Assembly: GCA_003024175.1 (NCBI GenBank)
Contig: MDYQ01000143.1
Span: 1 to 64,000 of the forward strand
Direction of reading: 5' to 3'
Length of the DNA stretch: 64,000 bases
Source: Planoprotostelium fungivorum
Taxonomy: Eukaryota > Evosea > Variosea > Cavosteliida > Cavosteliaceae
The position numbers and the translations under genes were made by a program. Position 1 is the first letter of the stretch. Each line of letters begins with the position of its first letter. The notes beneath the pieces were generated by a model. The model searched no databases, was not told the DNA's origin, and saw nothing but the letters and a program-made list of their open reading frames with translations. Shown one piece after another: positions 4,181-62,100 of this stretch.

Positions 4181-7100
4181 ATGGTGAAGAAGAAGATAGA
4201 CCAGCGTATACGAACGCTCATTGAGAATGGCAACCTCACCCGAGAGCGTTCATTCTTCTTCATCGTCGGTGATCGAGGCAAATATCAGGTAAGAGATGTG
4301 ATTCGATCACATTGTCTTCTGACATTGGGGTAGGTGGTCAATCTCTACAACATCATGGTCAGATCGACTGTCAGAGAGAAACCGAATGTTTTGTGGTGCT
4401 ACAAGAAGGAATTGGGTTTCAGCACCCACGCACAGAAGAGAATGAAGGAAGTACAGGAGAGAAACAAGAAAGGATTGGGCGATCCAGATACGGTAAGACA
4501 TCAAATCACCCGTCCATAATCCATCACACCTTCACCCTCTTTCCAAAATCTCTATCTTCATATCCCTCTCCACGATCTTGGATCACACATCGACATCATC
4601 GATCATCGACACAACCATCACGTCCTCACATTATCTCAGGAAGACCCTTTTGACTTGTTCGTCGGCACAGCCTCCATTCGTTTCGCTTACTACAAGGACT
4701 CACACAAGATTCTCGGTAACACCTTCGGTCTCCTCGTTCTTCAGGACTTTGAAGCTCTGACGCCAAACTTGCTGGCACGAACGATCGAGACGGTAGAGGG
4801 AGGAGGTATGATCGTTCTGTTGCTCAAGTCTGTTGATTCACTGAAACAATTGTACACCATGTCCATGGTGAGAACTCAATATTTCATCACGTCACGATGA
4901 TCATCATCTTCCATGACTTCTCTCATCGTAAAGCGAGATGAATTTCCATCGTATGATATCATCAATCATATTCCCATCGATCGACCGATTACAACGTTGT
5001 AGATGACATATATCTGAGACATGAATTTAAAATCCTTTTTCTCATTCTTTTAGGACGTCCACGCTCGTTTCCGAACAGAAGGTAACGGAGACGTCACCGG
5101 AAGATTCAACGAGAGATTCCTCCTCTCCCTCGCTTCTTTCAAAAACATTCTCGTCACTGATGAAGAACTCAACGTCCTCCCTCTCTCATCTCACATGATG
5201 AGCGGCATCACTCCCATCACCGACAAGGTGAGTCCATCTACAACGAGTTCATTTCATCTTCCGTGTACTCTTTAGCCTCGATCGATATCGCCGTGAGATT
5301 TCGCGAGAAACTGAAGAGGAGAACAGAAACAGAAGGAAGACAAAGAGTTGAAAGAAATCAAAGCGAGTCTGAAGGACGTAGAGCCAGCAGGAAGTATCGT
5401 CGGAACCACTCGTTCCGTGGAACAGGTCAGAATATTCTTCGAATCTTCCATCTACAACGCTCACCCCCTCCCAGGCCAAAGCCGTCATGACTTTCATCGA
5501 GGCCATCTCAGAAAAGTCGTTGAGATCTACGGTTACGCTCACGGCCGGAAGAGGAAGAGGAAAGTCTGCTGCCCTCGGTCTCGCCATCGCATCTGCCGTG
5601 ACTTTCGGTTATTCGAACATCTTTGTCACTTCACCCTCACCGGAGAACTTGAAGACTCTCTTCGAGTTTATTTTCAAGGTGAGACGATGATCTCATGTGA
5701 TGATGTCATCTCGTGACATGATCGACACGATCGCGATCAAGATCGATGATGATCGTGAGATGATGTGATGACGATCGAAGATGATCGTGATGATGCTGAC
5801 TCATCATGACAGGGATTAGAGGCTGTCGGTATGAAAGAACACACCGATTACGAGATCGTACAGAGCACCAACCCCGATTTCAACAAGGCCATCGTCCGAG
5901 TCAACTTCTTCCGCGAGCACCGTCAGACCATCCAGTACATCCAACCCCAAGACGCTCACAAATTGGGACAGGTGACCCATCCTCGCACTTTCCTCGTATT
6001 TTCCTCGGAATCTCCGAAAAATTCTGACTCGAAAAGGCCGAATTGGTCGTCATCGATGAGGCTGCAGCCATTCCTCTTCCTTTGGTGAAATCTCTATTGG
6101 GTCCATACTTGGTCTTCATGTCCTCTACCATCAACGGTTACGAAGGGACAGGAAGGTCGCTCAGCTTGAAGCTGATCAAGCAACTGAAAGAGCAGAGTGA
6201 GAAGAGCAAGACGGGAAGGATGCTGAGAGAGGTCGAGCTGACCGAACCCATCCGGTGAGTCATCCATCTACACCGTTGTAGACGGTCAAACGTCAAATTA
6301 TTATTTTAAGAATGTACCGTCTACACTATCATTGTAGATGACACGTCTCCAGTTACGCACAAGGAGATCCAATTGAAAAGTGGCTGAATGATCTCCTCTG
6401 CCTCGATGCATCTCAAGTTCAAAAGATTCCCACTGGTTTTCCACACCCCGACGAATGTGAACTCTACTACGTCAACCGTGACACCCTCTTCTCTTACCAC
6501 AAGGCCTCGGAATCTTTCTTGCAGAGATTGGTCGCCCTCTTCGTCTCTTCTCACTACAAGAACTCGCCCGATGACCTCCTTCTGATGAGTGATGCACCGG
6601 CTCATCATCTCTTCGTGTTGGTCGGACCAGTGGATCCGAAGCAGAAGGGTCTACCTGAAATCCTCTGCGCCGTACAGGTACGTCCTCGTTGTAGATCGAC
6701 GTTTCCGCGAAAATTTTCCCGTGACGTCTACAACGGCATTGTAGATGACGACGTGACAGGTGGCATTGGAGGGTAGGATATCGAAGAAACACGCCATCGA
6801 TTCGTTCAGCCGAGGAAAAGCTGCTGCGGGAGATTTGATTCCGTGGACCATCTCTCAGCAGTACCAAGATGCAGATTTTCCCACCTTGTCCGGCGCCAGA
6901 GTCGTTCGCATCGCCACGCATCCAGATTATCAGAAGATGAAATACGGCACGAGGGCTCTGAACCTCTTGCACTCGTACTACAAGGGAGAGATTGTATCTG
7001 TCGACGAGGTGAAGAATGATTTCGTCGCGATTCAATGTTGAGATGTGAAACCGTGTGAAGCGTGATGTCTATGTGGATCGTATCGATGAAGAAGTGAGAA

Positions 7101-8265
7101 ATGACAATCAACTCACGCTGGTTCAGTCAAAAGAAGAAGAAGACACACGAGAAGAGAAGAAGAAAGAGAAGACGAAAGAAGGAAATCTGCAGAGCGAGAG
7201 CATCAAACCGAGAGCCAACCTTCCTCCCCTTCTCACTGAATTGAAAGACCGAAAGGCGGAGCCTCTCAACTACGTCGGCGTGTCTTACGGTTTAACTCCC
7301 GAGCTCTACAACTTTTGGGCGCGTGGAGGTTACCTGCCTGTTTACATCCGACAGACGAAGAACGATTTGACGGGGGAGAACACGTGCATCATGATCAAGT
7401 CATTGAGATCGGATGATGATGAGATGAAGGTCGAAGGTGACTGGCTCAACAGTTTCCACGTCGATTTCAAGAGGAGGTGGGGTGATGGAATGGCGGGTTG
7501 TAGATGGATGAATTTGTCAGGTTCGTCTCCCTCAGCGCTTCAGTTTTCCGCGGATTTTCTCCGTCTACGGCCCTGTCCATTGTAGATCCCAAGGGTCCCA
7601 AATCTCAAGAACCTTTGGGACGAGAACAGCTCTCCCTCTTCTTCTCTCCTTACGATTTGAAGAGACTCGAGAGTTACGCATCGAATCTGTCCGACTACCA
7701 CGTCATCATGGACATGCTGCCTCTCATATCGAGGCTCGTGTTCCTGGGAGGTATCGCAGTGGACATGAGGTATGATATCATGATGACGTCATCGAGAAAA
7801 TTCTAAGAAATTTCAGTCCGGTACAGTCTGCCATCGTTCTTTGCATGGGATCGCAGAACAAATCGGTGGACGAAGTTGGGGTGAGGAGATCATGATGACA
7901 TCATCTGATGTCATGCAGGCCGAGCTGAACCTACCGGTGACGCAGGTGCTCGCTCTGTTCAACAAGGTCATGAGAAAGGTCTCGACCAACTTGAGGAAGA
8001 TCCAAGAGCAAGCGGTGGAGGGCAGCATGAGTGAGAAGAAGAAGAAGGCGACGGAGAAGCTACCCTCTCAACCTTTGGGTGAGTCACAGATGATGATGAT
8101 GCGACTGAGACAGATGCAGATGATGTAGAAGTCACGGAGGAAGGAAAGAAGGAGATCGAGAAGGAAGTAGAGAGATTAGTTGGAAAGGGAGACAACGGTG
8201 GAAAGAAGAGAGGAAATCAGGAGAGCAGCAAGCCCGCCAATAAGAAGCAGAAGGGAAAGAAATAG
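4181..8265 (+). CDS. NAT10: NAT10/Kre33 RNA cytidine acetyltransferase
   Basis: Nucleolar enzyme that makes N4-acetylcytidine in 18S rRNA and tRNA using acetyl-CoA and ATP. Start MVKKKIDQRIRTLIENG matches the family N terminus. In order: the TcmA/DUF1726 region with LWCYKKELGFSTHAQKRM and ALTPNLLARTIETVEGGG; the RecD-like helicase with Walker A GRGRGKSAALG, FGYSNIFVTSPSPENL and Walker B VVIDEAAAIPLPL; the GNAT domain with ARVVRIATHPDYQ; the tRNA-binding tail with YGLTPELYNFWARGGYLPVY and SPYDLKRLESYASNLSDYH; and a basic Lys-rich end. The size of about 1,000 residues is normal. It is split by more than ten short introns. Six carry the ATCTACAAC-type introner motif (4868-5053; from 5228; 5426-5474; from 6255; from 6678; about 7476-7520), some as two hairpins in one intron. 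Confidence 0.96.
6255..6351 (+). repeat. Double-hairpin introner-like intron (NAT10)
   Basis: An intron of about 97 nt with two separate motif hairpins: CCATCTACACCGTTGTAGAC near its 5' end (6264-6283) and GTCTACACTATCATTGTAGA near its 3' end (6319-6338). The neighbouring intron from 6678 shows a similar arrangement. Confidence 0.8.
7476..7520 (+). repeat. Introner-like intron, CCCGCCAC subfamily reversed (NAT10)
   Basis: An intron of about 45 nt containing GGCGGGTTGTAGATGG (7492-7507), the reverse complement of CCATCTACAACCCGCC. It shows that the sequence works as an intron in either orientation. Confidence 0.8.
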
Positions 8266-9126: not shown

Positions 9127-12100
9127 TTATGATGTCCTTTGTCTCTTCCTTCGCCACGGGGGGTCTGGTGGGTATTGGGGATCTGGCGATCCTCCAGGGG
9201 AGATGGCCGAACCGGTAGGGGGCTCGCGCCCCGAGAGTTCTGTCGGAGACAGATAAGTTGGTGATGGAGCGTTGGGAGATGTGTGTTCTGTGTGATCAGG
9301 GTTAGGAGTTTGGGGGGTTGTGGGGGTAATATCATTACGCTTTTGATTGCTCTTGCATCGTTCAATCCATTTCTTACGGGTGTATTTTGCTATCATGTAA
9401 TAGATCGTCTGTTTGATTTCTTTCTTGTCTTTCTTCTTTTTCGTGTGTTTGTTCATGTGTTTGATGATGTATTTAGGGATGAATCCTTTGTCGTATGTCT
9501 GTAAGTTGACATCGTATTGGTGACTGTCAGTGTTGAACCACGGGGGAGGGATGGGATGGATAGATGGTTCTAATTTGGTTGTCAATTCGTTCCACATCTC
9601 TTTGTTTATTTCGATGGCGGATGGACACGAGGAGAAGATGTGATTAGAGTCTTCGAGAGTCTCTTGTCCGTTGCGGTTGCATCTCGTGCACCATGGGTTC
9701 AATTCGTTGTATGTTTCAGCCGCCTTTTGGTTTGTGTAGAGAGTATCGAGGATGATTTTGTGCGATAGGTTCGAGTGGGAGCCAAGATGAATCTTGTGGG
9801 TTCTTAGACGTGTCCAATTGTGTTGATCGATCGTGTCATCTTTGAGGATCGCAGTTCGGCGCGTGGTCTTCTTGAACCATTCATCCTTCATCTGAGTTGT
9901 TAATAGTCGAAGGATTTCTTGTCTGGTATTGCGTATCCACGGGATGTTATGGTGAGTGAGATATGTTGATGGGAGGTCTGTGGTGTGGGTGTTGGGGTCC
10001 GTGATGATGTCATCTTCGGCATGCGTTAGCTGATCAGCCGCTTGGTTTCCTTTTAGGAGGTAATCTGTGAGGTTCCCGTAGATCTGTTTCATCTGTTGGT
10101 ATCGCTTTTCGAGAAGTTCAGTCCGTTGGTTGTGGTCTAAGAGATGAGCAAAGACATGTTCGAATTTCACTTCTGTTTGTGCTTGTTTGAGATTCGTGAT
10201 ACGTTTATCTATTCTTTCAAGGACGAGGCGGTATGGAGATTTCGATATTTGTTTCTTCTTCCATGATCGATAGTTCTGGATCATCTGAATGGCTGTCTTA
10301 CTGTCTGTGAATATTCTAACGTTTTGATGTTCAGGTAGCATTTCCAAGGCTATGAGGATAGCGTAGAGCTCAGCATTTGGTACATCTTGTATACCGGGAG
10401 TGAAATTGGCAGTTGATGACTCTCTATTCTGTCCGGAGAATGTTGCGCTGATGGCGATTCCGTTCTTTCGAAGAGAGCCGTCCGTCCATATGTGTATTGT
10501 TCCATTGTGTCTTTCAAACAAATGAGTTGGTAGGGGGTGTCTTGGTGTGTATGGTGTCGGGATGATCTTCCATCTTGGTTGCGAGAGGATGGCAATGAAG
10601 CGTTTGTATTCATCGTGTAGTTTGGGGCTTCTGATGCTATTGGTTTGTACATAGAGTGGTAATGTATGTCGGATAACGTCTTCTGATGGTCTCTGTCGGG
10701 GATCGTGTGTGATGGTTTCAACGTGATTGATGTAACCCCATTCTTTTACTTTTTGGATCACATAATTGCATCGCGGGAATGTGTGTTTGTCAATCATGTG
10801 TGGAGAGGATGGATTCACAATGTTTAGATTGATGATCGACAACGAGCGGTTGAGTATTTCTGTGTGGGGTGTCATGATGTGACGCACGCCAAGTTCATCG
10901 TAGATGTTAACATTGGTGGTGGTGGCGATGGCAAGGTTCATGTGCTGTATGGATTTGAGTCCACGGTATGTCCACCACATAATTTTTCCTGAACTCTTGT
11001 GTATTCGGCTGGAGATTTGTAATTGGCTGATCGTCCATTTATCAAGTCTCTCAGTGAAAGATTTCTCCATTGGTAAAGCTGTCATTCGATATTCGATCAG
11101 GGGATGGCTACGGTATTGATCAGTTTGATGTGTAGGTTTGTACCGAAGTATTTCTTCCTTAGGATCATTCCAACAATTCTTTTATATGATGTTTCTATTT
11201 GTTTGTACATTGGCGTCCAATCCAGAGAGAGTGTGATTAGCCAACCAAGGTATCGATATGGTGTACAGTTTCCAATGGTGGTGATGGGTTTGTTTTGTGG
11301 TTGTATCATGATGGGTTCTTCTTTTTTATCATGGTTCCAGGCGTACGCTGATTTCTCTTCGTTGATCATCAGGTGGTTCTCTCTGCAGAATTCTATCACG
11401 ATGTTGATCATCCTTTCAAGGTCTTCTCTTGTATGTGCAAGGAGTACACCATCATCAGCTAGCCATGTTGAGTTGATTGTTCGTCCATCTGATCGTGTGT
11501 AGCCAAGTCCCGATTCTTCTAATCGCTCAATTAGCGGGTTGATGTAGAGAAGGAAGAGGATGGGGGAGATGATATCGCCTTGTCTTACTCCTCTGGTGAT
11601 TTCAATGGGGTTGGTGTTTCCATGCGCCGTTTTGATCTCTATCGTGTTGCCGTTCAACAGTGTTCTGATGATGTCGATGACATCGGAGTGGAAGTTGTAT
11701 TGTCGGAGACTGTTGAAGATGGCTTCGTATTCTACGGAATCAAATGCTTTCATGGCATCTAGATAGGCAACATGTAGAGATTTGTTTCGTTGATGACTGT
11801 CTGTGATGCAAGAGATCAGGTCCGTGATGCAGTGGGTTGTAGAGCGGTTTGCTCGGAATCCAAATTGGCGGTGAGATAATATCTTATTTTCTTCTACAAC
11901 TTTGGTTAATCGGGAGGTGATGATGTGAGAGAGAGTTTTATATACAGTGTCTAAGAGTGAGATTGGTCGATAGTTAAGAGGATTTGCTTTGTCTTTATCC
12001 TTGTATATCATCGAGACTGATGCTGTTCTCCAGGTGTCTGGTAATTGGTGTCGTTGGATCACATCATTCATGAGTTCGAGCATCTTCTCTTTCAACTCTG

Positions 12101-13754
12101 GTGGTGAGTTATTTAATGCTTCATTCGGTATCTCTGTCATTCCCGGACTCTTGTTTTGTTTTAACGATCTCAGGGTATCGTTAAGTTCTTGCATGGTGAT
12201 CTCTGCAAGGATCTCTTTTTTTCCAATGGGGTCAGTGTTCTCGAAGAAATGTTTGGGTTCAATTCTTCCTTTTGATTGGAATATGGGCGTCCAGGCGTCT
12301 CTCACGGCCGCTTTTACTTCGGTGGGTTCGACATGTACTTTTCCTTCATCATCTCTCGCTGCACAGATGTCGATGAATTCAGCTCTTGTTTTTATGATTT
12401 TATAGGCCAAGTTTGGTTGTTCTTCTATCTCATTCACAATATCTTCGACTCTTTCTTTGATCTCTTCATTTGTCCGTTTCTTGACGATCGCATTCAGCCT
12501 CTTACTTATTTTAGATCTGCATTTGTTGATCCTTCGGTGGAATGTGGAGACGCAATCGGTGTCTTCCCATGTGGTGAGGTATTTTTCGTAGAGCTGTTTG
12601 GTGTCGTCGATTGATATATTATCTAGGGAGTCGGACTGACGAGTCATTTGGAAGATACGATTCAATTGTTTGAAGTCGTGGTGGAGGAGTCTCTCCTTTT
12701 CGGTCAGAATATATCCTCTTCTTGGCGGTGGGGGTTTGGTCTTGGGGCAGGTTTCTTCCATGGATGATAGGATTGTCCTACGTATAAATTCTTCTTTCTC
12801 GTTTATGTTCATCGACGAGTCCCATTGGGATAGATCAGCTTTCTTTATGTTCTCTTTGTATTGATCCCAGATCTCTTGTTTGAGATTTCTGAATCGTGTA
12901 CGGGGGATGAATTCTTTTGTACGTATCGATCTGGGTCCCATTGTGTGTTCGATCGTGAGCGTGACCATTCTGTGGTCAGAGTGGAAGGTGTCTTCTTCAT
13001 CTATGTGGTGGTCGATTCCAGTGTGGGTGTGCTTAGTGTATATGTGGTCTATTCTCGATCGAGTTTCCAGTGTCCTTTGGTCTTTTTGTGTGTATTTGAA
13101 GAAGGTGTATTCTCTTCGAAGGGGGTGGTGGTGTCGAAAGGAGTCTGTGTATTGAAGTGAAGTAAGGAGATCGATAAAGATGTGTTGTCCTTCTGATGGG
13201 TGACGGTGTGTGCTATGTTTATCAAGATTAACGTTTTCGTATTCGTTGAAGTCGCCGAGGATGATGTGAGGTGTTTGTTGGGTGATGATCGGTTGGATTT
13301 CTTTTATCCATTCTGTTCGAGACTTTTGTTCTGGAGGAGCGTAAATGCTCATGATCTTGAGGGTGCTGTGTGTGCCCGTGATGGAGATCATGATGTGGCG
13401 TAGTTTTCCGCTCCTGTCTGTGATATGAATGTAACTGTCAAGATCTTTTTTATAGAGGATTCCCATTGCGCTGTGTCTTTTGTCTTCGCTAAAGAGGATC
13501 AATTTGTAATTGTTCGTTGGCTGATGGTATTTGTTAGCCGATGTGGTGTTGATAAGATTGAGGCCAGTGTGACTCATGAATAGGAGATCGATGTCCTTCT
13601 CTTCTGTCTCCCTGTAGATCATGTTGTGTTTTGTGTTCCATCCTCCATTGAGGTTGATTGACGATACTTTGAGAGGAGTTACAAAGGAGTTATGAGAGGG
13701 TGATTTATTGTCGAGGACATTTGCGAGGATGTCTGGTAGGGTATTGTCGTTCAT
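9127..13754 (-). CDS. LINE ORF2: AP endonuclease, reverse transcriptase, RNase H (one frameshift)
   Basis: Starts MNDNTLPDILANVL one base after the ORF1 stop. The endonuclease part shows IILGDFNEYENVNL, RSRIDHIYTKH and HSDHRMVTLT. The reverse transcriptase shows NYRPISLLDTVYKTLSHI, HRQFGFRANRSTTHCI, YLDAMKAFDSVEYEAI, GVRQGDIISPILFLLYI and the catalytic box WLADDGVLL (LADD in place of the usual YADD). A one-base frame change near 11085-11097 follows KLINTVAIP. The other frame continues with MTALPMEKSFTERLDKW and the RNase H domain, with catalytic acids in HIWTDGSLRKNG, NAELYAILIALEML and VRIFTDSKTAI. After it comes a Cys/His knuckle, CTRCNRNGQETLEDSNHIF followed by SSC. The whole product would be about 1,540 residues. 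Confidence 0.9.
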
Positions 13755-13755
13755 T

Positions 13756-15447
13756 TTAGTTATTATAGAATGATGCAATTCTCTGTGATTCCTCGTCGGC
13801 GGTCTCGATCTTGAGGGCAATGGGAAGGCAGCCGTGTCTAATTCCGGTGATGTAGAATCCTCCAGGTCTCTCTTCTACGATGATGTCCTTTCTGTTGAAG
13901 AGGAAGACGTAGGCGGAGGTGACTTTTCCTCTCTGGTTGGTGGTTATGGCAACTTTGATGATCCTTTGTCTGGGGTTGAAGCTGTTCGCCCAGTCGGAGA
14001 TCATTCTGTGGATCTTTCTGACTTCAGGGAGGTTGCGACCAGAGAGCACCTTATGTGGTAAGAGAGAGATGGGGTGATTGTAACGTACCCCTTTGATGAT
14101 TTGTTCATCGTCGGTGCGACATAAGGCATGGATCACGTGGATCTTGTGTGGTGGGCTATCGATGTGGTCCTTCTTCAATAGGGTGATAAAGGTCTTGCGA
14201 CTGATGCACTTGATGGTAGCAATTTGTTGGTTGTTGGTGGCAGGTTGGATAAGAAAGTGTTGGTCCCCGTCGTTGTCTAAGAGTCTCGAGAGGGAGCCGT
14301 TGGTGATAAGAGAGCGAAGGTGCTCGTGTTTGATGATGATGTTGTAGGTGCGGAGGGCTTCATCAAAAGATCTGCTGATGCATCTTTTGGTGTACGTCAG
14401 GTGAGCGCTGGGGAGGTTGATGGCGGCCATGTGGGTAGAGGTTTGTATAATGATGGCGTGGTGGCCGTTGCCTACATCTCTGGTAGCAAGGTTGATGATG
14501 TTGGCAGGGAGGATCGGCTGGAAGGTGGTCTCTGCATCTGTTCGTGAGGGAGTTGTTTCTCCTGCGGGAGTTCTTCCAATGTAGGTGGTGATCTTGTTGA
14601 TGTTATCGACATTGAAGTGGTTGTGTGGAGCTGCTGGTATACCAGGGGGATCGTTGGGTGCAGCAGCAGCTTGTTCAGCTTGTTCGGCTGGAGGAGCAAG
14701 TACTTCTTCTTCTTGGACTTGATGGGCGACAGGTTCTTGGTGTCTGTGGAGCATTTCGATGTCTTCCATCATGTCTGGCATGTTGAGGTAGTCTTCGGTG
14801 TCGGAGGTGTCAGGGACGGCAGGAGCGGTGTTGCTGTGGTCGACAGAGGAGTTTTTGGATCGGTTACGCTTGGACATCTTCTTTGTTGGTTCTGATAGAG
14901 AATGACTGGGTTGTACTGTAACGTCTGTCGTCATTTTGGATGTCGATGTTGTTGCATCATGTATAGGCTGAGTGCATTGGTAGGGTTTGTGTTGTTGTGT
15001 TTTTGGGCCTATGAATAAAGGCGAAGGGATGTCTCTCCTTTGGGGAGCACGATGGGCTACTTGTGGAGGAGGAGCTCTTTTTTGGGGATCATGATCATTG
15101 TGAGGAAGATTGTGAGACGTTAGCTCTGCGTGTTGTTTGTGAATGGGTAGGGGAATCATTAGATCGAGTCTTCTTTTATGTAGAGCATTTTCGTGGGTAT
15201 CAGGAGGATCGATCAACGGTGGGTCATGTGAGTGTGTGGACTGCGTTTTCTTGTGAGAGGGTTTGATATGGATGGGATATGTATGGTTATGTGGGGTGTG
15301 TGGGTTTAAGAGGTTTGTTCGTTTAAAGAGTGTAGGACGTAGGTGGGTATGGAACCCGTTAGGAGAATTAGCAGAGCAGCGAGAGCAATACTCAAAGATG
15401 GGTAAGAGTTGATGAGGGCAAAGCCGTCGTTTTATACTCTTAGGCAT
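13756..15447 (-). CDS. LINE ORF1 protein
   Basis: About 560 residues from the first ATG inside the element (15447). The open frame extends a further 36 codons upstream to an ATG that lies in flanking host DNA next to the target-site duplication, so that longer start is not the element's own. Near the N terminus, YCSRCSANSPNGFHTH fits a small C2H2-type zinc finger. The middle is acidic and Ala/Glu/Pro rich, and the C-terminal 250 residues look globular. ORF1 of this LINE group binds RNA and helps assemble the retrotransposition particle. The stop TAA is followed by one base and then the ORF2 ATG (TAAAATG), an arrangement suited to termination-reinitiation. Confidence 0.8.
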   Translation of the reverse strand: MPKSIKRRLCPHQLLPIFEYCSRCSANSPNGFHTHLRPTLFKRTNLLNPHTPHNHTYPIHIKPSHKKTQSTHSHDPPLIDPPDTHENALHKRRLDLMIPLPIHKQHAELTSHNLPHNDHDPQKRAPPPQVAHRAPQRRDIPSPLFIGPKTQQHKPYQCTQPIHDATTSTSKMTTDVTVQPSHSLSEPTKKMSKRNRSKNSSVDHSNTAPAVPDTSDTEDYLNMPDMMEDIEMLHRHQEPVAHQVQEEEVLAPPAEQAEQAAAAPNDPPGIPAAPHNHFNVDNINKITTYIGRTPAGETTPSRTDAETTFQPILPANIINLATRDVGNGHHAIIIQTSTHMAAINLPSAHLTYTKRCISRSFDEALRTYNIIIKHEHLRSLITNGSLSRLLDNDGDQHFLIQPATNNQQIATIKCISRKTFITLLKKDHIDSPPHKIHVIHALCRTDDEQIIKGVRYNHPISLLPHKVLSGRNLPEVRKIHRMISDWANSFNPRQRIIKVAITTNQRGKVTSAYVFLFNRKDIIVEERPGGFYITGIRHGCLPIALKIETADEESQRIASFYNN

Positions 15448-15540
15448 ACTTTGAAGCTCTCGCTTAAGACTCTTACATAATTCTAACGAATATTCACCAT
15501 GGCCTTGCGTGTTGATCGGATGATCGTTCCGGAAAAAGTC

Positions 15541-15553
15541 CCCGGCCGTAACC
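15541..15553. repeat. Target-site duplication of the LINE (5' side of the element)
   Basis: CCCGGCCGTAACC, the exact partner of 8767-8779. It marks the 5' end of the minus-strand element. Confidence 0.9.
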
Positions 15554-15902
15554 ATGAAGACTTCAATTATGACTCCATCTACAACGAAAACAATAATATA
15601 TTGAATTCAGCTCTGAACCTTTTACCCTGATTTGCATCCGCTGACAGTGGACAATAACAGAGAAAAGTGCCAATGTACGCTATCTTTTTAGCGTACGTGA
15701 CAGTAATCCACACTTTGCTCATCTCGGACAACGTTTTTGTGACCTGTGTGACATACCATTGGAATCAGCGCATTTTGCTGAACAAGGTGGACTATCTTTT
15801 GGTTCCACGGTTTTAAAAAAATAGCGTATCTTGCATTAACATTTGCGGCCCATGCGAATATTTTCCTTTCTTTTTCACTCGCTACGATAACGCAAAATCA
15901 CC
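15554..15902. other. Intergenic stretch downstream of the LINE
   Basis: No gene seen. It holds one introner-like motif copy at 15575-15587 (CCATCTACAACGA) outside any recognised intron. A perfect 8 bp stem with 6-base loop (GTACGCTA / TAGCGTAC) lies at 15675-15696. The part near 15830-15900 probably serves as promoter for the small gene that follows. Confidence 0.5.
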
Positions 15903-18469: not shown

Positions 18470-18470
18470 T

Positions 18471-20379: not shown

Positions 20380-20489
20380 CTTCTGATCTGATCGGCCCAA
20401 TTTCTTCGTTGTAGATAGATCACTTCCAAATTTCGAAATTCGACGTCATCGACACGAACACATGAGAAGATGAAGAGAGTTTAAGTTGT

Positions 20490-29045: not shown

Positions 29046-29160
29046 TGATGCAAGATGATCGTGTGTCTTACGAAAGTTCTGTTATATTCTGTCTTCTCTT
29101 TCGTCACCGGCCCAAATGTGGCTCAACCTCTTGAGCCCTCTACAACCAAACTTGCGGCTT
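29046..29160 (-). promoter_or_regulatory. Upstream region of helicase copy 1, conserved with copy 2
   Basis: The 115 bases before the start share long identical blocks with the region before helicase copy 2 (34265-34385): GCAAGATGATCGTGT, GCCCAAAT, GGCTCAACCTCTTG and TTCTACAA/CTCTACAA. In copy 1 the core is a perfect interrupted palindrome, GGCTCAA-CCTC-TTGAGCC, at 29120-29137. Copy 2 keeps it with one change (34352-34369). This is either a retained promoter element or simply young duplicated DNA. Confidence 0.5.
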
Positions 29161-29213
29161 TCACCTTTTTGGGCTCAATTTGCAAATTGCGACTACAACA
29201 GCTGCGTGCATTA

Positions 29214-48066: not shown

Positions 48067-48293
48067 CAGTTTGTGCATTTATAGTTGTCGGCCATGACAT
48101 CGCATTTTGAGCCTCCTTCGTATTCCATTCTCTCTCTTCCCCTTATTACAAACACAGTTGAAATCATCTTCTGCTTGCGATTAGAGATGCCCAAAACACG
48201 TCTTTTAAATGTACCAAATTCCAGGAAAAAATAATCTACAACGGTTCTCAACGGATCGCCAGACCAAAAAAGAATCGAGATCGATTGGGTATC

Positions 48294-51200
48294 ATGGTGG
48301 GAAGAAAGAGGAAGGGAGAAGAGGACAACACCTCCAGGAAAGTATCTCGTCGTTCCAATGATGATCCCGATGATGAACAAGATTCACCTTTAATGAACGG
48401 CGCCATCAACAAGAAGAGCGACAAGCAAGAAGCCCTCATGGGTATCTTGGAGGAAATCGTTCTGATCAATTTCATGTGTCACAAGAATCTCTCCCTCACC
48501 TTCGGACCCTGTGCTAACTTTGTTGTCGGTCAGAACGGAAGTGGGTCTTTTCATTCAACAGAGTCTCTCTCCATCATGTTCCCCATAGACATTCCACATC
48601 TGACACCTTTTAGGTGGAAAGAGTGCGGTCTTGGTCGGTTTGACGGTTGGACTCGGTGCAAAAGCTGGTGTGACGAACAGAGGAAGTAAGATCACAGATC
48701 TCATCCGTTCCGGCTGTAATGCAGCGACCGTCAGTATACGTCTGCGCAACAGAGGAACAGAAGCGTATCGACACGATGCCTATGGAGATTCCATCACGAT
48801 CGAGAGTGAGACGTCGCATCACTTACTCCACATCCATCTGATGAGACATCGATAGGAAAGATCAAAAAGGAAGGATCGTCAACGTACGCACTCAAGAGTG
48901 CCTCTTCGAAAACTGTCTCGAAGGCGAGCACTGAATTACACAACATCTTGGACCACTTCAACATCCAAGTGAGAAATCAAAATCATTTCTTCCTCCACAA
49001 GAAAGAGAAGAAGAGACTCATCCCTGTAGGTGTCTAATCCTTGTTCCATTCTCATGCAAGACACTTCGCGTGAATTCCTCAACAACGCCACGTCAAAGGA
49101 CAAGTACAAGGTGAATCTCTTCCTTCCTTCTCGATCTCAACTTGTGTCAGTTTTTTCTCATGGCCACACAATTGGATGCCATGGAGAAGGATTTCGAGAT
49201 CGTCGGCTCCAATCTCTCTTCGATGAAGTGAGGACATCTTCTCTTATTCCATTCGACGTGTTGACATCACGCGATCTGAATGCAACAGGGACTCTCTGAA
49301 GAGGAAGAGAGGCATATTGGGGGACATGAACGCAAAGGTGGAAGAATTGAGAGAAGAGATGGAACAGCTCAATCAATTGACGAAGAAGGAAGATCACTTG
49401 CAGAACCTCAAGGACATGATGGCATGGGCTCACGTACAAGAACAGAGACAGGTCTGTCTGATTTTCAGTCTCCATCCGTTACCTGGTGACAAATATACAG
49501 TTGGTGGATACGTTAGAAACGCAAGTTCAGAACATTCAGAGCAATCGTGAGAAACTCGCCAGCGTTCTAGCCAAAATGGATGTGAGGTTTTATTCATTAC
49601 AAATGACTCAATCGTCAAGACTTTTTCTATCGAAATGTATCTTTCGAAACGAAAGGAATCAGAAGTGAATTGTTCATAGGAGCAAGAGAGTCAAGTGAAT
49701 CAAGAGATGACAGAAAGGAGCGGACAGCAGAAGACACTGAACGAGAGACTGAAAGCCTTGAAGGCAGAGCTGATGACACTTCAAGGCAGCAACTCCGAGG
49801 CCAAGAGAGAATACGATCGAGCTCGTGCAGAAGTGTCGCAGTGTGAGAAGGATATCGAAATGAAAGTCAGCCGAGTCAAGAGAATGGAGAAGCATCTTCA
49901 GAGTGCACAGGAGATAGCCAGCAGAGACAAGAGGTGAACGTCACTCTCTTCTTACGACTCTCTACATGTCTTCATATGACAATGAAATGGTCTCGTATTG
50001 AATGAGAGAACAGAGAAGAGAGACAGAAGAGAGAAGCAGCCATCGCCGAGAAGGAAGAGAAGATGGAGAACATCAAGAGAGAGATGGAGCAAGTGAAAGA
50101 GCAGATCTCCACCTTGGAACAAGAACAATCGAAATTCGACGAAGAATCGGATAACTTCAAGAGTGAGTCATCACCGTCTGGAGATTCCACGGAAAACTCA
50201 CGATTCCCAGGAAGAGAGAACGAGGTTCTAAAGACGAAGAGCCGAGTCGACTCCGAGGTGAAGGGTTTCATTCGAATGAAACTGACTCGTTGTAGATCAC
50301 TTCCCTCCGCCAGCAGAAGGAGAAGGGTAACAATTTGAACGCTTACGGTCCTGGTATACCCGAGTTGGTCAAATTACTGAGAGATAACCGCCACAAATTC
50401 AAGAAGCCCGTCATTGGACCCATTGGATCAGAATTACACTTGCTCAATGAACAATGGGGTGTCGTTGTAGAGGAGGTAAGGACGATCTATTTCACATCGT
50501 TTATTTCACATCTCATCCGATCGCGATGTGAACGTGATGCACTCGAACTTGACATCACGATGAACGATAGATGTGATGTACTGATGAGATCAGGTGTTGA
50601 AATCGATCATCGGTAGTTTCATCGTGGACAACGAAGTCCACGACGGCAAACTCTTCAAAGAATTTTGCAATCGATGCCGAGTGTGAGCCCCATCGACGAT
50701 GTCAAACTCATCACTCACCGATGTAGACAACCTCGTTACATCGTCTCCACCATCGAAGACAGACAATACGATTTACGTGCCTCTGAATTGCCCGATCCGC
50801 GTTACACGACTGTCCTCAGTGTCTTGAAGGCAAATCATCCTGCAGTCATCAACACGTGTATCGATCAGGCCAACGTGAGATTTCACGTGGAAATCGGAGA
50901 GTGACGCGTTGTAGATCGAGAGGAACATCATGATGAAAGAACGAAAAGATGCATCGAGAGTCATGTTTGACAACGGTCCCGTTCCACATCACGTCAAGTC
51001 TTGCTTCACACTCGATTTCAAGCAGCTCTACGTCAGGTGTCATACATCTACATCGTTGTAGATTGACATTTCTAGGAACGGCACGCAGGTGACGGTACCC
51101 TGGAAGGGCGAGCGAAGGTTCTTGGGTGTCAACGTGGATTCTCGCCTAGCGTAAGTCGAAATTTCAGACAATTTTCACCGTCCGTTCACTGAACGAACGC

Positions 51201-52773
51201 AGAGAGTGTGAAGCAGCAAGAGATCGAATCAGTCACGAAGTGAGGGGCATGTCCGGGGAGAAGAAGAAAGTGGAAGAGAACGTCAACGGTACGAGAGGTC
51301 AACTACAACGAGCCAGACGACAATTGCAAGCACAACAGCAGGCGGTCAACCCTCTTCAACGAGAGATCGATGAATTGAAGAATTACAAAGAACCTGCATC
51401 TGAAGAACAGACGTCAGTGGAAGACCTCAAACAAACTCTCGAGGTGGATATAACTCGTACGTAAATCGAAATATCGACAACTTTTAGTCATTGTACAAGT
51501 CCCTGGAGGAAGCGAAAGAGAGCAAAGAGAAGGCACAAGAGAATGCAAAAGAAGTGAAGCAGAAGCAAGCACCCTTCCATAGGCAGTTGCAAGAGAAGCA
51601 GCAGGAGATCGATAACATTGCAACGGATATCTCTTCTACTCAAGACAATGTGAATGACGTCAGCGCTCGTCTACAACAGCTCGTTCTAAAAAAAGCGAAA
51701 TCGAGCCGTGCAGCCTTGGAGATCGAGAGGGTGAGGCTATTTTTAGTACATGGGGCTGAAGAGAGTAGAACAGAGAACAAGTGGAGGAGAGCTTAGGAGA
51801 AGCTAGGCGGGAAGTCGAAAATCGCGTCGCGATCGCATCGCAGATCTGCCCCGAGGTGACATTTTCCCGCCAATCTTTGTCATTTACATTTCGACGAGGT
51901 ACCCGTCACACAATCATTGCAGGCCATCGAGAGAGAAATCCGACACGTTCAAGACGAGATCAACCGAGAGAAGAGAGGGAAGAGACAGCCTGAAGTCATC
52001 CGAAAACGATACAAAGAAGCAAATTTCAACTACCAGACCATCGTGAATCAAGTGAGTCTGACTGCTTCTACAACGTTGTAGATGGAAGAATGACTGGGGT
52101 AGGTGCAAAGTTTAGAAGGGCAGCAGAAAGACATGGAGAAGTGTCTGCAAGGAAGATTGGCCAAGTGGCAGAGCTTCAGAAAATCGTTGGCCATGCGAAC
52201 GGGAATGTTATTCAATTATTACCTCACTCAGAAGGGTTACTCAGGTGATTCATCCATCTACAACGTTGTAGATTGACGTGACCACAGGCTCTCTCAAGTG
52301 GGACCACGAGGGTAAGAAATTAGACATCCGTGTCGAATTGGACAAGGACAGACCACGACAGCAGCAGGCCACTCAAGACACCAGGTGACGACCCCATCTA
52401 CAACCCGCCACTCCCCCCTCACCCCCACACAGGGCTTTATCCGGTGGTGAGCGCAGTTACTCCACCGTGTCCCTCCTCTTAGCTCTCTGGGAGGCCATGG
52501 AGTGCCCGTTTCGAGCGATGGACGAGTTCGATGTCTTTATGGATGCGATGAATCGTGATCTGTCCATCAAGTTGTTGATTGATGCCTCGAAGGAGCAGCT
52601 GGACAGACAGTTCATCTTCATCACCCCCCATGACTTCAGGTGAGAAGAAGAGAGGATTGGAAGTGACGTTCGGCAGTACGGTGACGGGCAGCCACGTTCG
52701 GATACATCGCATGATACCGCCTGAGAGGGGGCAGACGACACTCAACTTCTCGCAGTCGCAGTCGCAGGCTTAG
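48294..52773 (+). CDS. SMC6: SMC6, structural maintenance of chromosomes protein 6
   Basis: ATPase of the SMC5/6 DNA-repair complex. A basic head, MVGRKRKGEEDNTSRK, leads to IVLINFMCHKNLSLTFGP (NFMCH is diagnostic of SMC6). Walker A VVGQNGSG/GKSAV is split by an intron, followed by GAKAGVTNRGSKITDLI and SIRLRNRGTEAYRHDAYGDS. Long coiled coils (49300-50300 and 51200-52150) flank the hinge/head joint containing GVNVDSRLA. The C-terminal signature is RALSGGERSYSTVSLLLALW and CPFRAMDEFDVFMDAMNRDL. It ends RGQTTLNFSQSQSQA, with TLNF like a PIP-type end. Six introns carry the introner motif, three of them bare palindromes (51037-51075, 52052-52102, 52245-52287). Confidence 0.95.
50258..50295 (+). 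repeat. Introner-like intron, right-end type (SMC6)
   Basis: A 38 nt intron containing the palindrome TTCATTCGAATGAA followed by ACTGACTCGTTGTAG. The splice falls after TGTAG, and the exon begins ATC, so the motif crosses the junction. Confidence 0.85.
50875..50914 (+). repeat. Introner-like intron, right-end type (SMC6)
   Basis: A 40 nt intron ending GACGCGTTGTAG, with exon resuming ATCGAG. Again the repeat supplies the acceptor. Confidence 0.8.
51037..51075 (+). repeat. Introner-like intron, collapsed palindrome (SMC6)
   Basis: A 39 nt intron with CATCTACATCGTTGTAGATT as its core. Arms are 10 bp with one mismatch. Confidence 0.8.
52052..52102 (+). repeat. Introner-like intron, collapsed palindrome (SMC6)
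   Basis: A 51 nt intron with TTCTACAACGTTGTAGATGG as its core, and acceptor GGGGTAG downstream. Confidence 0.85.
52245..52287 (+). repeat. Introner-like intron, collapsed palindrome (SMC6)
   Basis: A 43 nt intron whose centre is CCATCTACAACGTTGTAGAT, a 10+10 bp perfect palindrome with no spacer, followed by TGACGTGACCACAG. Confidence 0.85.
52385..52432 (+). repeat. Introner-like intron, CCCGCCAC subfamily (SMC6)
   Basis: A 48 nt intron, GTGACGAC then CCATCTACAACCCGCCACTC, then a C-rich run and CACAG. Confidence 0.85.
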
Positions 52774-54166: not shown

Positions 54167-55463
54167 ATGGTCCTCGCAGCTGTTGGTCAGTTTCGTGCGA
54201 CGATTCAAGTGTTAGCCAATGCAGAGTCTTGTCTCAATATTATCCATAGAGCGTCCAAGTGAGGTCGCATCACCATCCCTTCTCACATGTGATCACAGGG
54301 CAGGTGCGAAAGTGGGCCATCATCAATTTTGAAACGACTGATCGTGTTATAGACTGTATTTCTTCCAGAGGCCAGCGACTTCATCGGCTTGAACGTCAGT
54401 GAGAGCGATTCAGCCGTGATTGACGTCATTTCAGGCTGAAGAAGGTCTTAAGACGGCTCGCAATGAGACACCCCAGTTCGTCAAGATGATTCGAGATGCA
54501 GCGGCCCTCTCCAAGATCGAGGTGGGAGAGCTTCTCGCTGGAAGAGATTGATGTAAGGTAGGTCAGTGTTGGAATCCACTCACCTTTCCATCTAAATAAT
54601 GATGCAACCGTTACACCGACAAAGACGACCAACACTTGTCTCTTCATTTCCTCCGATGGAGAGGTGAATCGATGACATCATCAGCCGCGATACCGATCAT
54701 TGCAGATCGTACAACAGTATCACAAATTGCATCTCTTCGATGTTTTCGTAGAGGGCAGTCCAATCTATCACGAGAGCAAGGGAGTCCAAAAGGGCTCCAG
54801 CTTCTTGAAACCATTCGACACATCCATCGGTCGCCTGGGCATGAACATCTGTTACGATGTGATCCATCTCCATCGTCTCCCTCTCATCTCTACATCAGGT
54901 GCGATTTCCCGAGATGGCCTTGAAGTTGAGAAGAGAAGGAGCCGAGATACTGCAATATCCATCCGCCTTCACGCTCAGAACGGGGGCAGCCCACTGGTGA
55001 AGAATCGACTATCTACAATGCCACGTGTTGAATCAAGCAGGGAATTATTGTTGAGAGCGAGGGCAGTCGATACACAGTGCTATGTCATGGCGGCAGCTCA
55101 AGGTGGGAAGAACATGAGACGAAATGAGATGACGGATCAACAAGTTGGAAAACACGACGAAGAGGGAAGGAGAGCTTCGTATGGACACGCCATGATCGTA
55201 GATCCTTGGGGTGATCTCTTCTATGAAGAAACGATTCCACATCGAGACGATGATGATGCATCTTCCATCGTGTCACACGAAGCACATCGAATTTGAATTC
55301 TTCCACAAAATTGAAGAGAGCAGGATCAATCGTGGCACAGTGTTCCGATATGTCAACGGAGCCGAGTTTCTGCCTGGCCGACGTCGATCTACAATCATTA
55401 CGTCAAGTGAGACAGTCCATGCCCCTGTGGGATCAGAGGAGAGAAGACGTCTTTCCCTCGTAG
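54167..55463 (+). CDS. NIT1: NIT1 nitrilase-family deaminated glutathione amidase
   Basis: Repair amidase hydrolysing deaminated glutathione. The start MVLAAVGQFRATIQVLANAE leads to VFLPEASDFIGL, containing the catalytic Glu. Next come TVTPTKTTNTCLFISSDGE, QYHKLHLFDVFVEG (catalytic Lys) and RLGMNICYDV with RFPEMALKLRREGAEIL (catalytic Cys). Then follow YPSAFTLRTGAAHWE, LLRARAVDTQCYVMAAAQGG and RRASYGHAMIVDPWG. The final exon reads SFCLADVDLQSLRQVRQSMP and WDQRREDVFPS, matching the human LCLARIDLNYLRQLR end. There are about nine exons. An intron near 55010 carries a weak motif variant (TATCTACAATGCCAC). The gene is convergent with DMC1, 47 bases apart. Confidence 0.92.
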
Positions 55464-55475
55464 AAGGTCGATCGA

Positions 55476-55491: not shown

Positions 55492-55510
55492 CTATTTTAC
55501 GGAATATCGA

Positions 55511-57091
55511 TCAATCCTTGCAGTCGATGATACCTTCGTTGGCGATCTGATACTGTGCCTGAGAAGAATAAATCCATATTCATTTCAATTTAATCTTTCT
55601 ACTTCACCTCGGACTCGGGAAGGCAAGGACTGTCGTAGATCTTACAGATCCTCGCTTCTCCTCTTCCTGAGAGAAATAAATGAAGAATAAAATCATTTAA
55701 ATCACCTTTCCTGAGGTAGAGGCGAGTTGTAGACGCGTGGGCCATGATGTGACCACCGATGGGTTTCTTCGCATCGGCAACGAACATGGCCGCAGCTCCT
55801 GGATCAGAGACCACTGGAGACCAATTCAGCCGAGGAGAAAAGAGGCTCGTTGTAGATGACCGTTCACCTTGGTTGGTCACGACGACGGCGACGTTGAATT
55901 CTTCTGCGATCTTGATGAGACGGCTGAGCATGTGGCCCAGCTTCTGCTGGCGGTCGGCCAGCTCTCCTCTGCCCGAGAAATCGACGCTAAGAGGATCAGG
56001 ATCGATCTACAACGAGTCGGAGGTACCGAAAGAGGGCGGTGATGGAATCGACGATGAGTAACTTGTAATGTTCTTCCACCATCTTCGCGGCGATCTCTGG
56101 GGGGGTGTCAATCTACAACCTGCCAGAGTAGTCACCCGTGATGAGCTGGAGCTGGTGTTCGTGGGTGTAGGCACGTGCGTAAGCGATGTTGTCCAAGGCG
56201 GCGTCGGGGTCTAAACCGTAACGTATGGCGATGGGGTTGATACGCTCTGGACGGAACGTACCCTCCGTGTCGATGTATGCCACCTGTTGTACGTTTAAGA
56301 GGAGAAATTCGAAAGAGGAGAGAAGGAGGAGAGGAGTACCTTTCCGTTGCCTCCACCGAGAGAGCCGGGAAGTTGAGTGGTGATGCAGAGGGTGTGGCAG
56401 ATCTGAGTCTTTCCGGTACGAAATTCACCGAAGAGCTCCGTGATGGACATGGTCTCGATGCCGCCTCCTGTTCGGGTGAGGTGAGTTTGGCTCGTTGTAG
56501 ATGAATAGATACCCAGTAGTTCGTCCAGCTGCTTGGCACCGGTCGTTACCTTGGTGACGTCCCTTCTCTTCAACAGGGCATCCGAGCCAGACATGAAGCT
56601 GGAGAACTACAACCAGTCTAAGTTTCTCTGTCACGTGACCGAGACGACTGACCTTGAGTTTACCGGCGGCTTCGATGATCTTGTCGACCTTGGCCTCCGT
56701 GATACCCTTGATGGCACACAGCTCCTTCTTCGTTCTGTGACAAGTTGAATTTTCAACTTGAAATATTCGGCTCTGACCTCATGATGACCGCTCCGACCGT
56801 ATGGCAGCCACCAGACTTGAGCTTGTTGATATCTACGTGCAGATATATTAGTAGAAATATTCGAGAAGAGAAGACAAGTTACCTCCTGCGTTGATACCGA
56901 GCTCCTGCAATTTGTCGATTTCTGCGAAGGCTGGACCGGACTCCTCTTCTTCCACATTGGTTTCGCCAACGGTCGTGGCCGCTCCTTCCTTCTCTACGGC
57001 CGTCTCGGCTTCTTTCCTAACGTTCGAGATGAGATGTAGATGAGAAGTCTGCGGCATTGGCTCACTGCTTTCTGACTGATCGGGATGCCAT
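55511..57091 (-). CDS. DMC1: DMC1/RAD51-family recombinase, closer to DMC1
   Basis: Meiotic strand-exchange ATPase. The start at 57091 gives MASRSVRK, an intron, then an acidic head. The helix-hairpin-helix part reads [19 protein letters not shown] and [20 protein letters not shown]. The core has [20 protein letters not shown], Walker [31 protein letters not shown] and Walker [14 protein letters not shown]. After it come [48 protein letters not shown] and [18 protein letters not shown]. The pieces [21 protein letters not shown] and KVDKI favour DMC1; YDSPCLPE is more RAD51-like. Five introns carry introner motifs (near 55844, 56004, 56109, 56489, 56605). Confidence 0.85.
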
Positions 57092-59116: not shown

Positions 59117-62100
59117 ATGAGATTCGATCGTACCGCCATCGACCACCTCAAAGAGGTCATCTCATCTGACCAACTTATCATGTCTGATCTTTTCCTCAGG
59201 AAGGCAATCAGAGATTCAAAGAGGGTGATTACACTGCAGCCGCTGCCAGCTATTCGTCCGCCCTCGCTCACACAGAATGGCCACAGGATTCAGCCGAGCT
59301 GAGAGCCATCCTCTTAACCAATCGTGCCGCATGCGGTTTGCAGACGACCCCCCTCGAATCGAAATCGATCGAAGAGGACCTCAAGACCGCACAGGTGAGA
59401 TAGCTCATGTCGAATTGAATAGATCTTTGACATCTACAAGATGTTGGCACCTCAATACGGCAAAGCATTCTTCAGGAGCGCACAGTTACACGAAAAGTTG
59501 GGCAACGTTGAGAAAGCTTTCAGCGGTGAGTCACAGATGATCATCATCATCATCTCACATGTCTCATCTTCGCAGAATACAAAGAATTATTGAGATTAGA
59601 ACCGAACAACAAGGTGAGACGTCTCACCTCATCTGATCCATCTCACACGTGTCAACAGGTGGCAGCGAAGGAAGCCCAGAGACTGATCGAGATCGTGAGA
59701 AAGAACCAGAAAGATGCATTATCCATCCAAGTGAGTCATCATCACCTCGTTCAGCTGCATCATGCATGACGGACGGAAATTCATCTTCTTTCAGGATGCG
59801 AGAGGATTGCTCGACGCCCTCTCTAACTCAGCCTCTGATGATGCAAAGAAAGAAGAAGCCATGATCAAACTGTTTCTATCCACGAAAGAGGTACGTCTAC
59901 AACGCACCACGAACGTTGGACGATTATGTATTGACTCGTTGTAGACGCCGGATCAGACGACATCTGTCGTTCTAGCGGATGGAATCGAATTATTGTATCA
60001 ATTTGCTGTATCTACAACGACGGGCGATGGAGATGCAAAGAAGAAGAAGATCAGAATCGGTGCCATCAAGGTGAACCATCTCCACCTCGTATACATCTAC
60101 AACGAGCCTCTCAGGTCTTACGCTTTGTGAGCCAGACGCAGGGCGCGAGATTCAGAGAGAAATTCTCAAAGGAGAAATTAGAGGTGACTGAAATCTCCGA
60201 CATTTGAAAGAAAAAATAAAGCGTGTACTGAACAAAGACAGGGCATGATGAAGATGTTGAGTGTGAACCCAGACGAAGACGTAGACAAACCAACGATCAA
60301 CCTCCTGACGGACTATGTCGTGGCGGGAACACCCTCGGACCCACTCAAATCCCAGGTGAAACAACGTCGACAACCCAAATCCATCACCCTCGGTGGTCGA
60401 CGTTTGTGACGCCGGCAGGTCGTATTGAAACTCTTCGAACTCGTGAACGGAATGAAAGAGAATCACTCGATGATCACTTTCATCATCAACGACATCATCA
60501 AGTTTCCATGGTCTAGACAAGACGTAGAACAAGTCATCAACAAATACCTCGGTGGGTGTCGACGTAAACGAGTCGATGTCGACTGACGTGTGCATAGGGA
60601 TACTCATCGATAAGACAGACGATAGAGAATGTCGACAGATGATATCTGTTCTACTCTCTCGCATGATGGGTGTCATCAACGAAGACGTGAGATAATCGAA
60701 AATAATAATTCGAAATTCATGTCGTTGTAGATCGGCACGAGATTGAAGATATCGTACGGAGACATCGTCGCGAACCTCCTCAGAGACAGACAGGACGTGA
60801 AGAAGAACGTGAAGGGTGAATTCATCTACAACGAGCTAGACCAACTGATCCTCTACAGGTCTCGCCGCCCTCACTTCCATCATGTTGGCTGATGCCGACG
60901 TCGGTACCGAAATATTGTTGAAGGTTTGTCCATCTACAATGCCTCTGTAGATTGAACGTTCCAGGAAATCCAACACGTCGTAGAGTGCATCGACCACTTG
61001 GCACAGAGAGCAGACGTCAGCAGCGACACAGAGAAGGAGACACAAGTAGAGGAGGCACGTTCTTTAGCTTCTGAAGTTCTGGCCCACGCTTCAGGAAACA
61101 AAAAGTTTCAGAAGGTGAAGAAGAGACGAAACTGCATGATGGACGATGGATGATGACACATCTTGCAGGTGTGTGAACCGAGAGTCATGGAAGAGCTCTT
61201 GTCCTTCTTATTATCGGAGAAGTTAGAGACAAGGTGAAGATGATGATGCACATGTGACGATGCTGACGAGAGACAGAGCGAAAGTAGTTGCCATCACCTC
61301 TCGTCTTGCTTCGGGCAATTCAAAGATGTATGACGTGAGCGATCCATCACCATCCATCTCATCATCTGACACGAGCAGGTCATCGTGGCCAAAGACAAAG
61401 GTCTAAAGTCTCTCAACGAGATCCTCAGACTCCTCCGGACCGTCTCTCCCCTATCCTCTGATGACCCCACACGTCTCATCGTCGAGCAGTGGACCATCGA
61501 GGCGCTGTCCTTCTTGTCTCTGCACGGGCTCGTGAAAGAACAATTGGTCAGCAGCTCAGAGCTGTTAGACAAAGTCATCGACCTGGGAAAGAAGGGAGAC
61601 AAGAGCCTGTGGTATGGCATCTTATCCATCATCACCAATGTGACGAGGTGAAGACGATTAGAGGTCAAGATGACTCTAGAGATTGATTCTGGAAGGTTCT
61701 TGGCGAAAGATGATGAAGTGGCACAGTTAACCGACCAACTGAGACAAATGGCGGACGGAAATCGAGAGTTGAAGCAGTTGCAAACGGATCCTTTAGACAA
61801 GGATGAATTCGTCCTCGCTCGATGCAAGAAACTGGCCGAGAAAGGTAATGGACCTCTATAGACGATATGATATCGTGCTGACGTAAATTGAAGGAACCGT
61901 GGCTCTTCTCGTACAGATGGTGAAAGAAGATGTTGCACAGAGTCAGAAGGCGGTTGGCTCTAGAACATTCAGTATGACTGAGAACACAAAAGAGGCCGTC
62001 GCCACTGCCTTCTGTGCCTTTGCAACGGACCAGAAGGCAAGAGGAAAGATGGTGGCCGATGGTGCCGTGAAGGCATTACTCACATTAATCGAACACACAA

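Follow-up and report, generated by a model that had tools for sequence, protein, structure and literature searches.

The sequence analyzed here, referred to as the window, comprises positions 1 to 64,000 (64 kb) of contig MDYQ01000143.1 from Planoprotostelium fungivorum. Predicted genes in the window code for proteins related to NAT10, GTF2H4, EXOC8, SMC6, RAD51, and UNC45, for two alpha-mannosidases (A and B), two RIG-I/MDA5-like helicases, an ALKBH1-like protein, and a nitrilase-like protein. A long interspersed nuclear element (LINE) is also present. In predicted introns of these genes a short block, ATCCATCTACAACGAGYCA, recurs in both orientations and at positions linked to the splice sites. 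Introns of unrelated genes have more in common than this block, and a few are alike nearly from end to end. The motif-containing introns may be traces left by very small mobile elements that turn into introns.

Gene models were obtained with a purpose-written predictor for GT-AG introns, in which the rare GC form was also modelled, and were later refined. The introns are model predictions, and in the case of three genes they were checked by protein homology. Part of the NAT10 model (888 amino acids) aligns to RNA cytidine acetyltransferase 9j3c, part of the RAD51 model (366 amino acids) aligns to solved RAD51, and part of the mannosidase model (921 amino acids) aligns to jack bean alpha-mannosidase and also matches lysosomal alpha-mannosidase. 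These alignments support the predicted splicing in the three genes. Boundaries of five introns (29992-30032, 40777-40815, 50258-50295, 55814-55867, and 56468-56512) were set by hand or changed on protein or repeat evidence; the two RAD51 introns among them, 55814-55867 and 56468-56512, were placed where the first model showed an insertion or gap relative to solved RAD51. Pfam analysis of 16 window proteins revealed synapsin, carbon-nitrogen hydrolase, Tfb2, Exo84, AlkB-type oxygenase, helicase, and LINE domains, and the match of the UNC45 central domain was slightly below the cut-off.

The motif was counted on both strands of the window. The exact 9-mer ATCTACAAC/GTTGTAGAT is present in 45 copies and the 10-mer ATCTACAACG in 35, while 30 dinucleotide shuffles contained on average 0.47 copies of the 9-mer (maximum 2) and 0.07 copies of the 10-mer. 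A chance origin of the motif was rejected on the 9-mer counts. The repeated motif noticed in a preliminary description of the sequence is thus borne out, and the motif or a near variant was found by eye within ca. 15 nt of each of the 48 coordinates given there. The 11-mer quoted in that description as the core, CATCTACAACG, has just 21 exact copies, and many of the sites attributed to it are variants (CTACATCG, TCTACACCG, GTCTACAAC, and others). Copies at 22434 and 60010 (predicted exons), at 15577, 20407, and 48234 (intergenic), and a degenerate copy in intron 41356-41395 were missing from the original list, and the copy listed at 38493 is ambiguous.

When 54 of 66 8-mer hits, retained only if A or CG preceded the core, were aligned, a conserved block of ca. 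17 nt, TCCATCTACAACGAGYCA, was observed, beyond which information was at background; the choice of hits biases the two profile columns preceding the core. Subtypes GAGCCA, GAGTCA, CCGCCA, and CTGCCA recur 3' of the core. Nine copies form palindromes of the type CTACA-NNNN-TGTAG, and two further ones have a 7-nt centre. In a viral contig collection, the exact 20-nt palindrome had no match, and the spaced palindrome was found in six contigs, each with the matched 9-mer pair alone, which we read as chance; no NAT10 relatives were found in the same collection. Among the top k-mers listed, CATC/GATG repeats were the sole other family of comparable strength in introns, and low-complexity CATC repeats were rejected as the whole explanation on that listing. 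A second repeated palindromic string, GATCACGTGACC, was observed in three introns of different genes (22795-22835, 42338-42382, and 47134-47172).

Based on the refined models, 38 of the 45 9-mers are located in introns (14.0 kb), three between genes (7.5 kb; positions 15577, 20407, and 48234), and four in model exons (36.5 kb); the LINE (6.0 kb) has no copy. The exon-located copies at 22434, 42586, and 60010 are coding in the models, while that at 38494 is ambiguous. A bias towards genes, as described for introners in PMC9860276, is present here. The earlier claim of a non-chance clustering in introns is confirmed; its estimate was ca. 43 intronic copies out of ca. 49. One of the listed sites, 42581, lies in coding sequence of the second mannosidase.

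The strict 8-mer was found in 41, and a looser variant in 53, of 257 predicted introns, whose median length is 46 nt (256 introns of the refined models). Among 252 first-pass introns, the motif was present in forward orientation only in 17, in reverse orientation only in 15, and in both orientations in nine, so the freedom of orientation proposed earlier holds. The motif was found in 9 of 20 introns of mannosidase A, 7 of 16 introns of NAT10, and, in its loose form, in 5 of 10 introns of RAD51. In the case of the two helicase genes, just 2 of 47 introns contained it (strict form versus the rest, Fisher p=0.014). Most motif introns have lengths of 37-61 nt (37-55 nt was given previously), but six are modelled at 79-128 nt. 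Considering introns of up to 70 nt, lengths with and without the motif were 45.2 and 46.4 nt, respectively (n=32 versus 160, p=0.35). The equal length argues against simple insertion into pre-existing introns, and a secondary insertion that simply lengthened introns was rejected on this ground. Equal length is also expected of a motif made by substitution.

Placement of the motif within introns depends on its orientation. The spacer at 20383-20510, between mannosidase A and GTF2H4, was removed from the intron set before placement, target-site duplication (TSD), and end-to-end analyses. Of 29 forward copies, 23 begin no more than 15 nt from the 5' splice site, with 11.2 expected from uniform placement; for strict copies, the figures are 16 of 20 and 7.6. 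Out of 26 reverse copies, ten have their end right at the 3' splice site, another 15 are 14-23 nt away, and none is found at 1-13 nt, where uniform placement would put 11. When only the 20 reverse copies with TTGTAG were considered, the numbers were eight, 12, and zero, respectively. Two of the ten copies at the 3' splice site (43030 and 50683) end in ATGTAG and may fall outside the family.

Near the 3' end of introns that lack the motif, CTGA was present in 49 and TGAC in 45 of 166 cases, compared to ca. nine each in shuffles. These tetramers were at the top by enrichment ratio, followed by GATG, TGAT, and CATC. We read them as the branch point, in which case the reverse motif, CTGACTCGTTGTAG, likely holds a putative branch-point consensus and an AG ten bases further on. 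The first AG downstream of a branch point is used as acceptor, and the avoidance of the last 13 nt by reverse copies, unless they are themselves the acceptor, would agree with this rule.

Nine introns end in GTTGTAG or GTTATAG, and seven of these have TGAC directly ahead. Such endings would fit an RNA-level splicing device, with selection in ultrashort introns favouring a hairpin or a combined branch point and 3' splice site. The palindromic copies that were folded give short stems, and introns outside the family have a slightly low folding energy (mean z -0.32, n=150). Inverted-repeat arms of at least 7 nt are present in 13 of 136 (9.6%) non-family introns, compared to 3.2% of shuffles and 2.0% of exon pieces; hairpins are therefore not peculiar to the motif family. 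We nevertheless regard such a device as very improbable, since the orientation of about half of the copies supplies neither signal, most copies have no partner arm, and an RNA signal is not expected to be orientation-free. Strong palindromes unrelated to the motif were observed in non-family introns 4289-4333, 32558-32606, 56735-56777, 61845-61893, and others.

Similarity between motif introns of unrelated genes was assessed in two ways. In a flank-shuffle test, flanks were shuffled while the motif and splice ends were retained (25 shuffles, 887 pairs from different genes, introns of up to 100 nt, with the ambiguous 38483-38525 included in this test only). Thirteen pairs reached a Smith-Waterman (SW) score of at least 20, compared to a mean of 4.2 (maximum 7) in shuffles, and six reached at least 22, compared to a mean of 0.64 (maximum 2). 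An end-to-end comparison was also made of 216 introns of up to 70 nt, 45 of them in the motif family, and was likewise limited to pairs from different genes, with helicase-helicase pairs set aside. Here, a pair was counted if the similarity reached to 10 nt or less from each of the two splice sites. Seven pairs with a score of at least 18 were found, all in the motif family, compared to none in five shuffles, with a largest linked group of three; at a score of at least 16 there were 16 pairs, ten of them in the family, compared to 0-1 in shuffles. The alignment of intron ends suggested in the preliminary description thus revealed end-to-end likeness for a few pairs, though most motif-family pairs have only the internal block in common.

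Introns 50258-50295 of SMC6 and 41356-41395 of mannosidase B are identical at 28 of 32 positions, up to the 3' splice site, and the hairpin they share contains a paired T-A to C-G change. At the equivalent position, the intron of mannosidase A aligns with 41356-41395 over the last 15 nt only (14 identical). Together, the close match and the weak one suggest that the sequence passed between genes after the mannosidase duplication. Two further matches are in opposite orientation: EXOC8 47416 matches RAD51 56512 over 27 nt (92.6%), starting from the EXOC8 5' splice site, and mannosidase A 20986 matches mannosidase B 40777 over 30 nt, beginning at both 5' splice sites. One stretch of DNA may therefore provide a 5' splice site for one gene but lie near the predicted branch point in another.

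These similarities also bear on the possibility that a DNA-binding protein with sequence specificity recognizes the motif as a dyad of ATCTACAACG half-sites, which would have arisen by substitution and been retained within genes by selection. A core much more conserved than its flanks, the occurrence of palindromic, tandem, and solo forms in both orientations, and a 21-nt block that is identical in the diverged helicase paralogues would all be accounted for in this way. A binding site would not be expected to show the observed contrast between intronic and intergenic copies (38 in 14.0 kb versus three in 7.5 kb), likeness between unrelated genes beyond the site, or splice-linked placement, and we find the explanation quite unlikely.

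On balance, we think it probable, by a small measure, that the motif marks an introner-like family of short (ca. 30-45 bp), non-autonomous, sometimes palindromic DNA elements. We infer that the elements create introns: dispersed in genes, they would be removed as very short GT-AG introns. In forward orientation, an element would directly follow the 5' splice site, with the acceptor coming from elsewhere. In reverse orientation, the complement CTGACTCGTTGTAG would provide the branch point (CTGAC) and the 3' splice site (TAG); the TAG would serve as acceptor if located beyond the branch point, and otherwise the element would stay upstream of the branch point. A more specific proposal, which we put forward tentatively and consider rather doubtful, is an orientation-proof introner of ca. 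30-40 bp, both strands of which can be read as intron parts and which splices whichever way it is inserted. One end would give a GTGAG 5' splice site on one strand and a CTCAC or CTGAC branch point on the other, and a TAG acceptor would be built in; between a sixth and a fifth of the window's introns would derive from such elements. No introner with bifunctional ends was found in the titles and abstract openings that a search of the introner literature covered; its scope did not extend to most subscription journals or to any bioRxiv preprints.

Several observations weigh against an introner-like origin. No convincing TSD was detected when the 5' and 3' boundaries of introns of up to 100 nt were compared at 19 offsets: offset +9 was 2.3 standard deviations (SD) above the permutation mean, the remaining offsets either did not exceed chance or stayed less than 2 SD from it, and a single intron had a 7/8 boundary match at offset +7. 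Most copies have a single terminus, with one orientation only in 32 and both in nine of 41 first-pass motif introns. In a remnant search, vestiges of a second inverted terminus were not consistent among solo copies, in whose sets three palindromic copies remained; for one solo class, which included one palindromic copy, the result was weakly positive (mean z 0.68, 3 of 14 above 2). General conservation is confined to ca. 17 nt, and three copies are located between genes. Shuffled flanks themselves yield many moderate pairs (151 observed with a score of at least 14, compared to a mean of 124), and six of the 16 end-to-end pairs with a score of at least 16 are outside the family. Since splice sites and branch points are predictions, the use of the motif as acceptor in part reflects the predictor, and the acceptor at 50295 was set by hand. 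No transposase was found among the 16 window proteins run against Pfam. An origin from Helitrons, which have ends of the CTRR pattern, was rejected, as no such ends were seen by eye; no scripted test was made.

The mannosidase paralogues also speak against such an origin, though not decisively. Eight intron positions are common to both and 22 are unique, as read from the models, with one common position judged by eye. The motif was present in 5 of 16 introns at shared positions and in 9 of the 22 at unique positions (p=0.74); three of the shared positions (241, 311, and 524) have it in one paralogue only. This pattern fits a different history, in which small inverted-repeat transposons were fossilized in introns already present and compact-genome deletion trimmed the introns to ca. 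40 nt. Paralogue-specific introns are then not expected to be preferred, and at one of the three positions the intron with three tandem copies is indeed longer (79 versus 49 nt). We consider this history unlikely, since the motif does not go with greater intron length, in two paralogous pairs at matching positions the intron with the motif is as long as the one without (39/39 and 41/41 nt), placement is tied to the splice sites, and the likeness of some copies extends to 10 nt or less from each end. The attribution to introners made in the preliminary description is thus upheld with respect to dispersal among unrelated genes, freedom of orientation, splice-linked placement, and some end-to-end pairs. 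It is not upheld with respect to TSDs, a second terminus, the length of conserved sequence, and paralogue-specific enrichment.

The positions of motif introns are collected in Table 1. As for other features of the window, the LINE (9127-15606, minus strand) contains long open frames with domains for endonuclease, reverse transcriptase, and RNase H; ATCTACAAC is absent from 9127-15159, and one copy is located at 15577, near the 5' side of the LINE. The two helicase genes are arranged in tandem (24620-34264, minus strand), and their products, as modelled, are identical in 537 of 1055 aligned columns. A cysteine-bearing RWYLRC segment, preceding the helicase part, resembles the RIG-I C-terminal domain by eye, without a Pfam match there. 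The spacer between mannosidase A and GTF2H4 (20383-20510, minus strand, ca. 130 nt), two genes in one orientation, contains one motif copy and has an AG directly before the ATG; it could be part of an operon with a trans-splice acceptor. Rfam analysis of the window revealed one tRNA and one U1 small nuclear RNA (snRNA); the gene for the latter (62410-62575, plus strand, 90 bits), with a canonical 5' end, ATACTTACCTGG, is located within the predicted UNC45 gene.

Table 1. Motif copies in predicted introns and in one intergenic region
Gene or region	Positions	Strand	Basis	Remarks
NAT10	4071-4177, 4951-5078, 5228-5326, 5426-5474, 6255-6352, 6678-6759, 7477-7520	+	models, 9j3c alignment	two hairpins in 6255-6352
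GTF2H4	18585-18645	-	Tfb2 domain	palindrome TCTACAACGATGTAGA
Mannosidase A	20661-20700, 20948-20986, 21810-21850, 22332-22372, 22618-22661, 22795-22835, 22969-23008, 23058-23100, 23472-23550	-	homology	23472-23550: three tandem copies, 17-nt period; paralogue intron there without motif
First RIG-I/MDA5-like helicase	25142-25182	-	gene model, Pfam	
Second helicase	29992-30032	-	21-nt block identical to first	matching position in gene; 3' boundary hand-set
ALKBH1-like	35079-35121	+	model, Pfam	palindrome
Mannosidase B	40342-40385, 40621-40661, 40777-40815, 41356-41395, 42143-42189	+	intron list, paralogue comparison	40342-40385: two inverted termini, the 3' one being the acceptor; 41356-41395: degenerate copy as acceptor, TGACTCGTTATAG
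EXOC8	46210-46251, 46880-46916, 47316-47360, 47416-47452	+	Exo84 domains	
Between EXOC8 and SMC6	48234-48243	+	9-mer placement	
SMC6	50258-50295, 50875-50914, 51037-51075, 52052-52102, 52245-52287, 52385-52432	+	intron comparisons	50258-50295: 3' boundary hand-set
Nitrilase-like	54997-55040	+	gene model	degenerate copy TCTACAATG
RAD51	55814-55867, 55987-56026, 56097-56135, 56468-56512, 56607-56652	-	RAD51 alignment	loose form
UNC45	59891-59944, 60071-60114, 60687-60730, 60816-60858, 60924-60964	+	gene model	59891-59944: two inverted termini, the 3' one being the acceptor

The origin of new introns is an old open question. If the family described here creates introns, it would be a case with extremely small elements and would offer a possible reason why the orientation of insertion need not matter; it would also provide dozens of copies in 64 kb for timing intron gains, testing splicing cassettes, and finding the mobilizing enzyme. 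Otherwise, another explanation would be needed for a dyad motif bound so closely to intron architecture.

Miniature inverted-repeat transposable elements (MITEs) are short inverted-repeat DNAs with terminal inverted repeats (TIRs) and a TSD, whose sequence is common along the element. The family resembles them in consisting of short inverted-repeat DNA found in both orientations, but conservation here is limited to ca. 17 nt, no TSD was found, most copies do not have two termini, and no autonomous partner was seen in the window. In the case of Fritillaria borealis, 95% of introns depart from GT-AG, according to PMC13326754. Both systems have introns altered in a lineage-specific way and a U1 with a conserved 5' end, but in our models only GT-AG and rare GC introns were allowed, and the motif introns fit GT-AG.

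Introner elements of Amoebophrya, as described in PMC7789003, have repeats of 8-20 nt that pair the 5' and 3' ends of introns, as well as direct repeats of 3-5 nt that overlap the boundaries, and the introns are mostly non-canonical. The motif introns of the window are GT-AG, mostly contain a solo motif without end-pairing inverted repeats, and have no boundary direct repeats that we could find; as in Amoebophrya, inverted repeats capable of forming hairpins are located in short, repeated introns. According to the large survey in PMC9860276, introners were found in just two animal groups, median lengths of families start from 30 nt, and many families have neither TSDs nor TIRs. Whole introns are similar in the introner families described there, while the introns analyzed here usually share a 17-nt internal block and no TSD was found. 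Common to both are short, sequence-similar introns that are located in unrelated genes, biased towards genes, and free in orientation.

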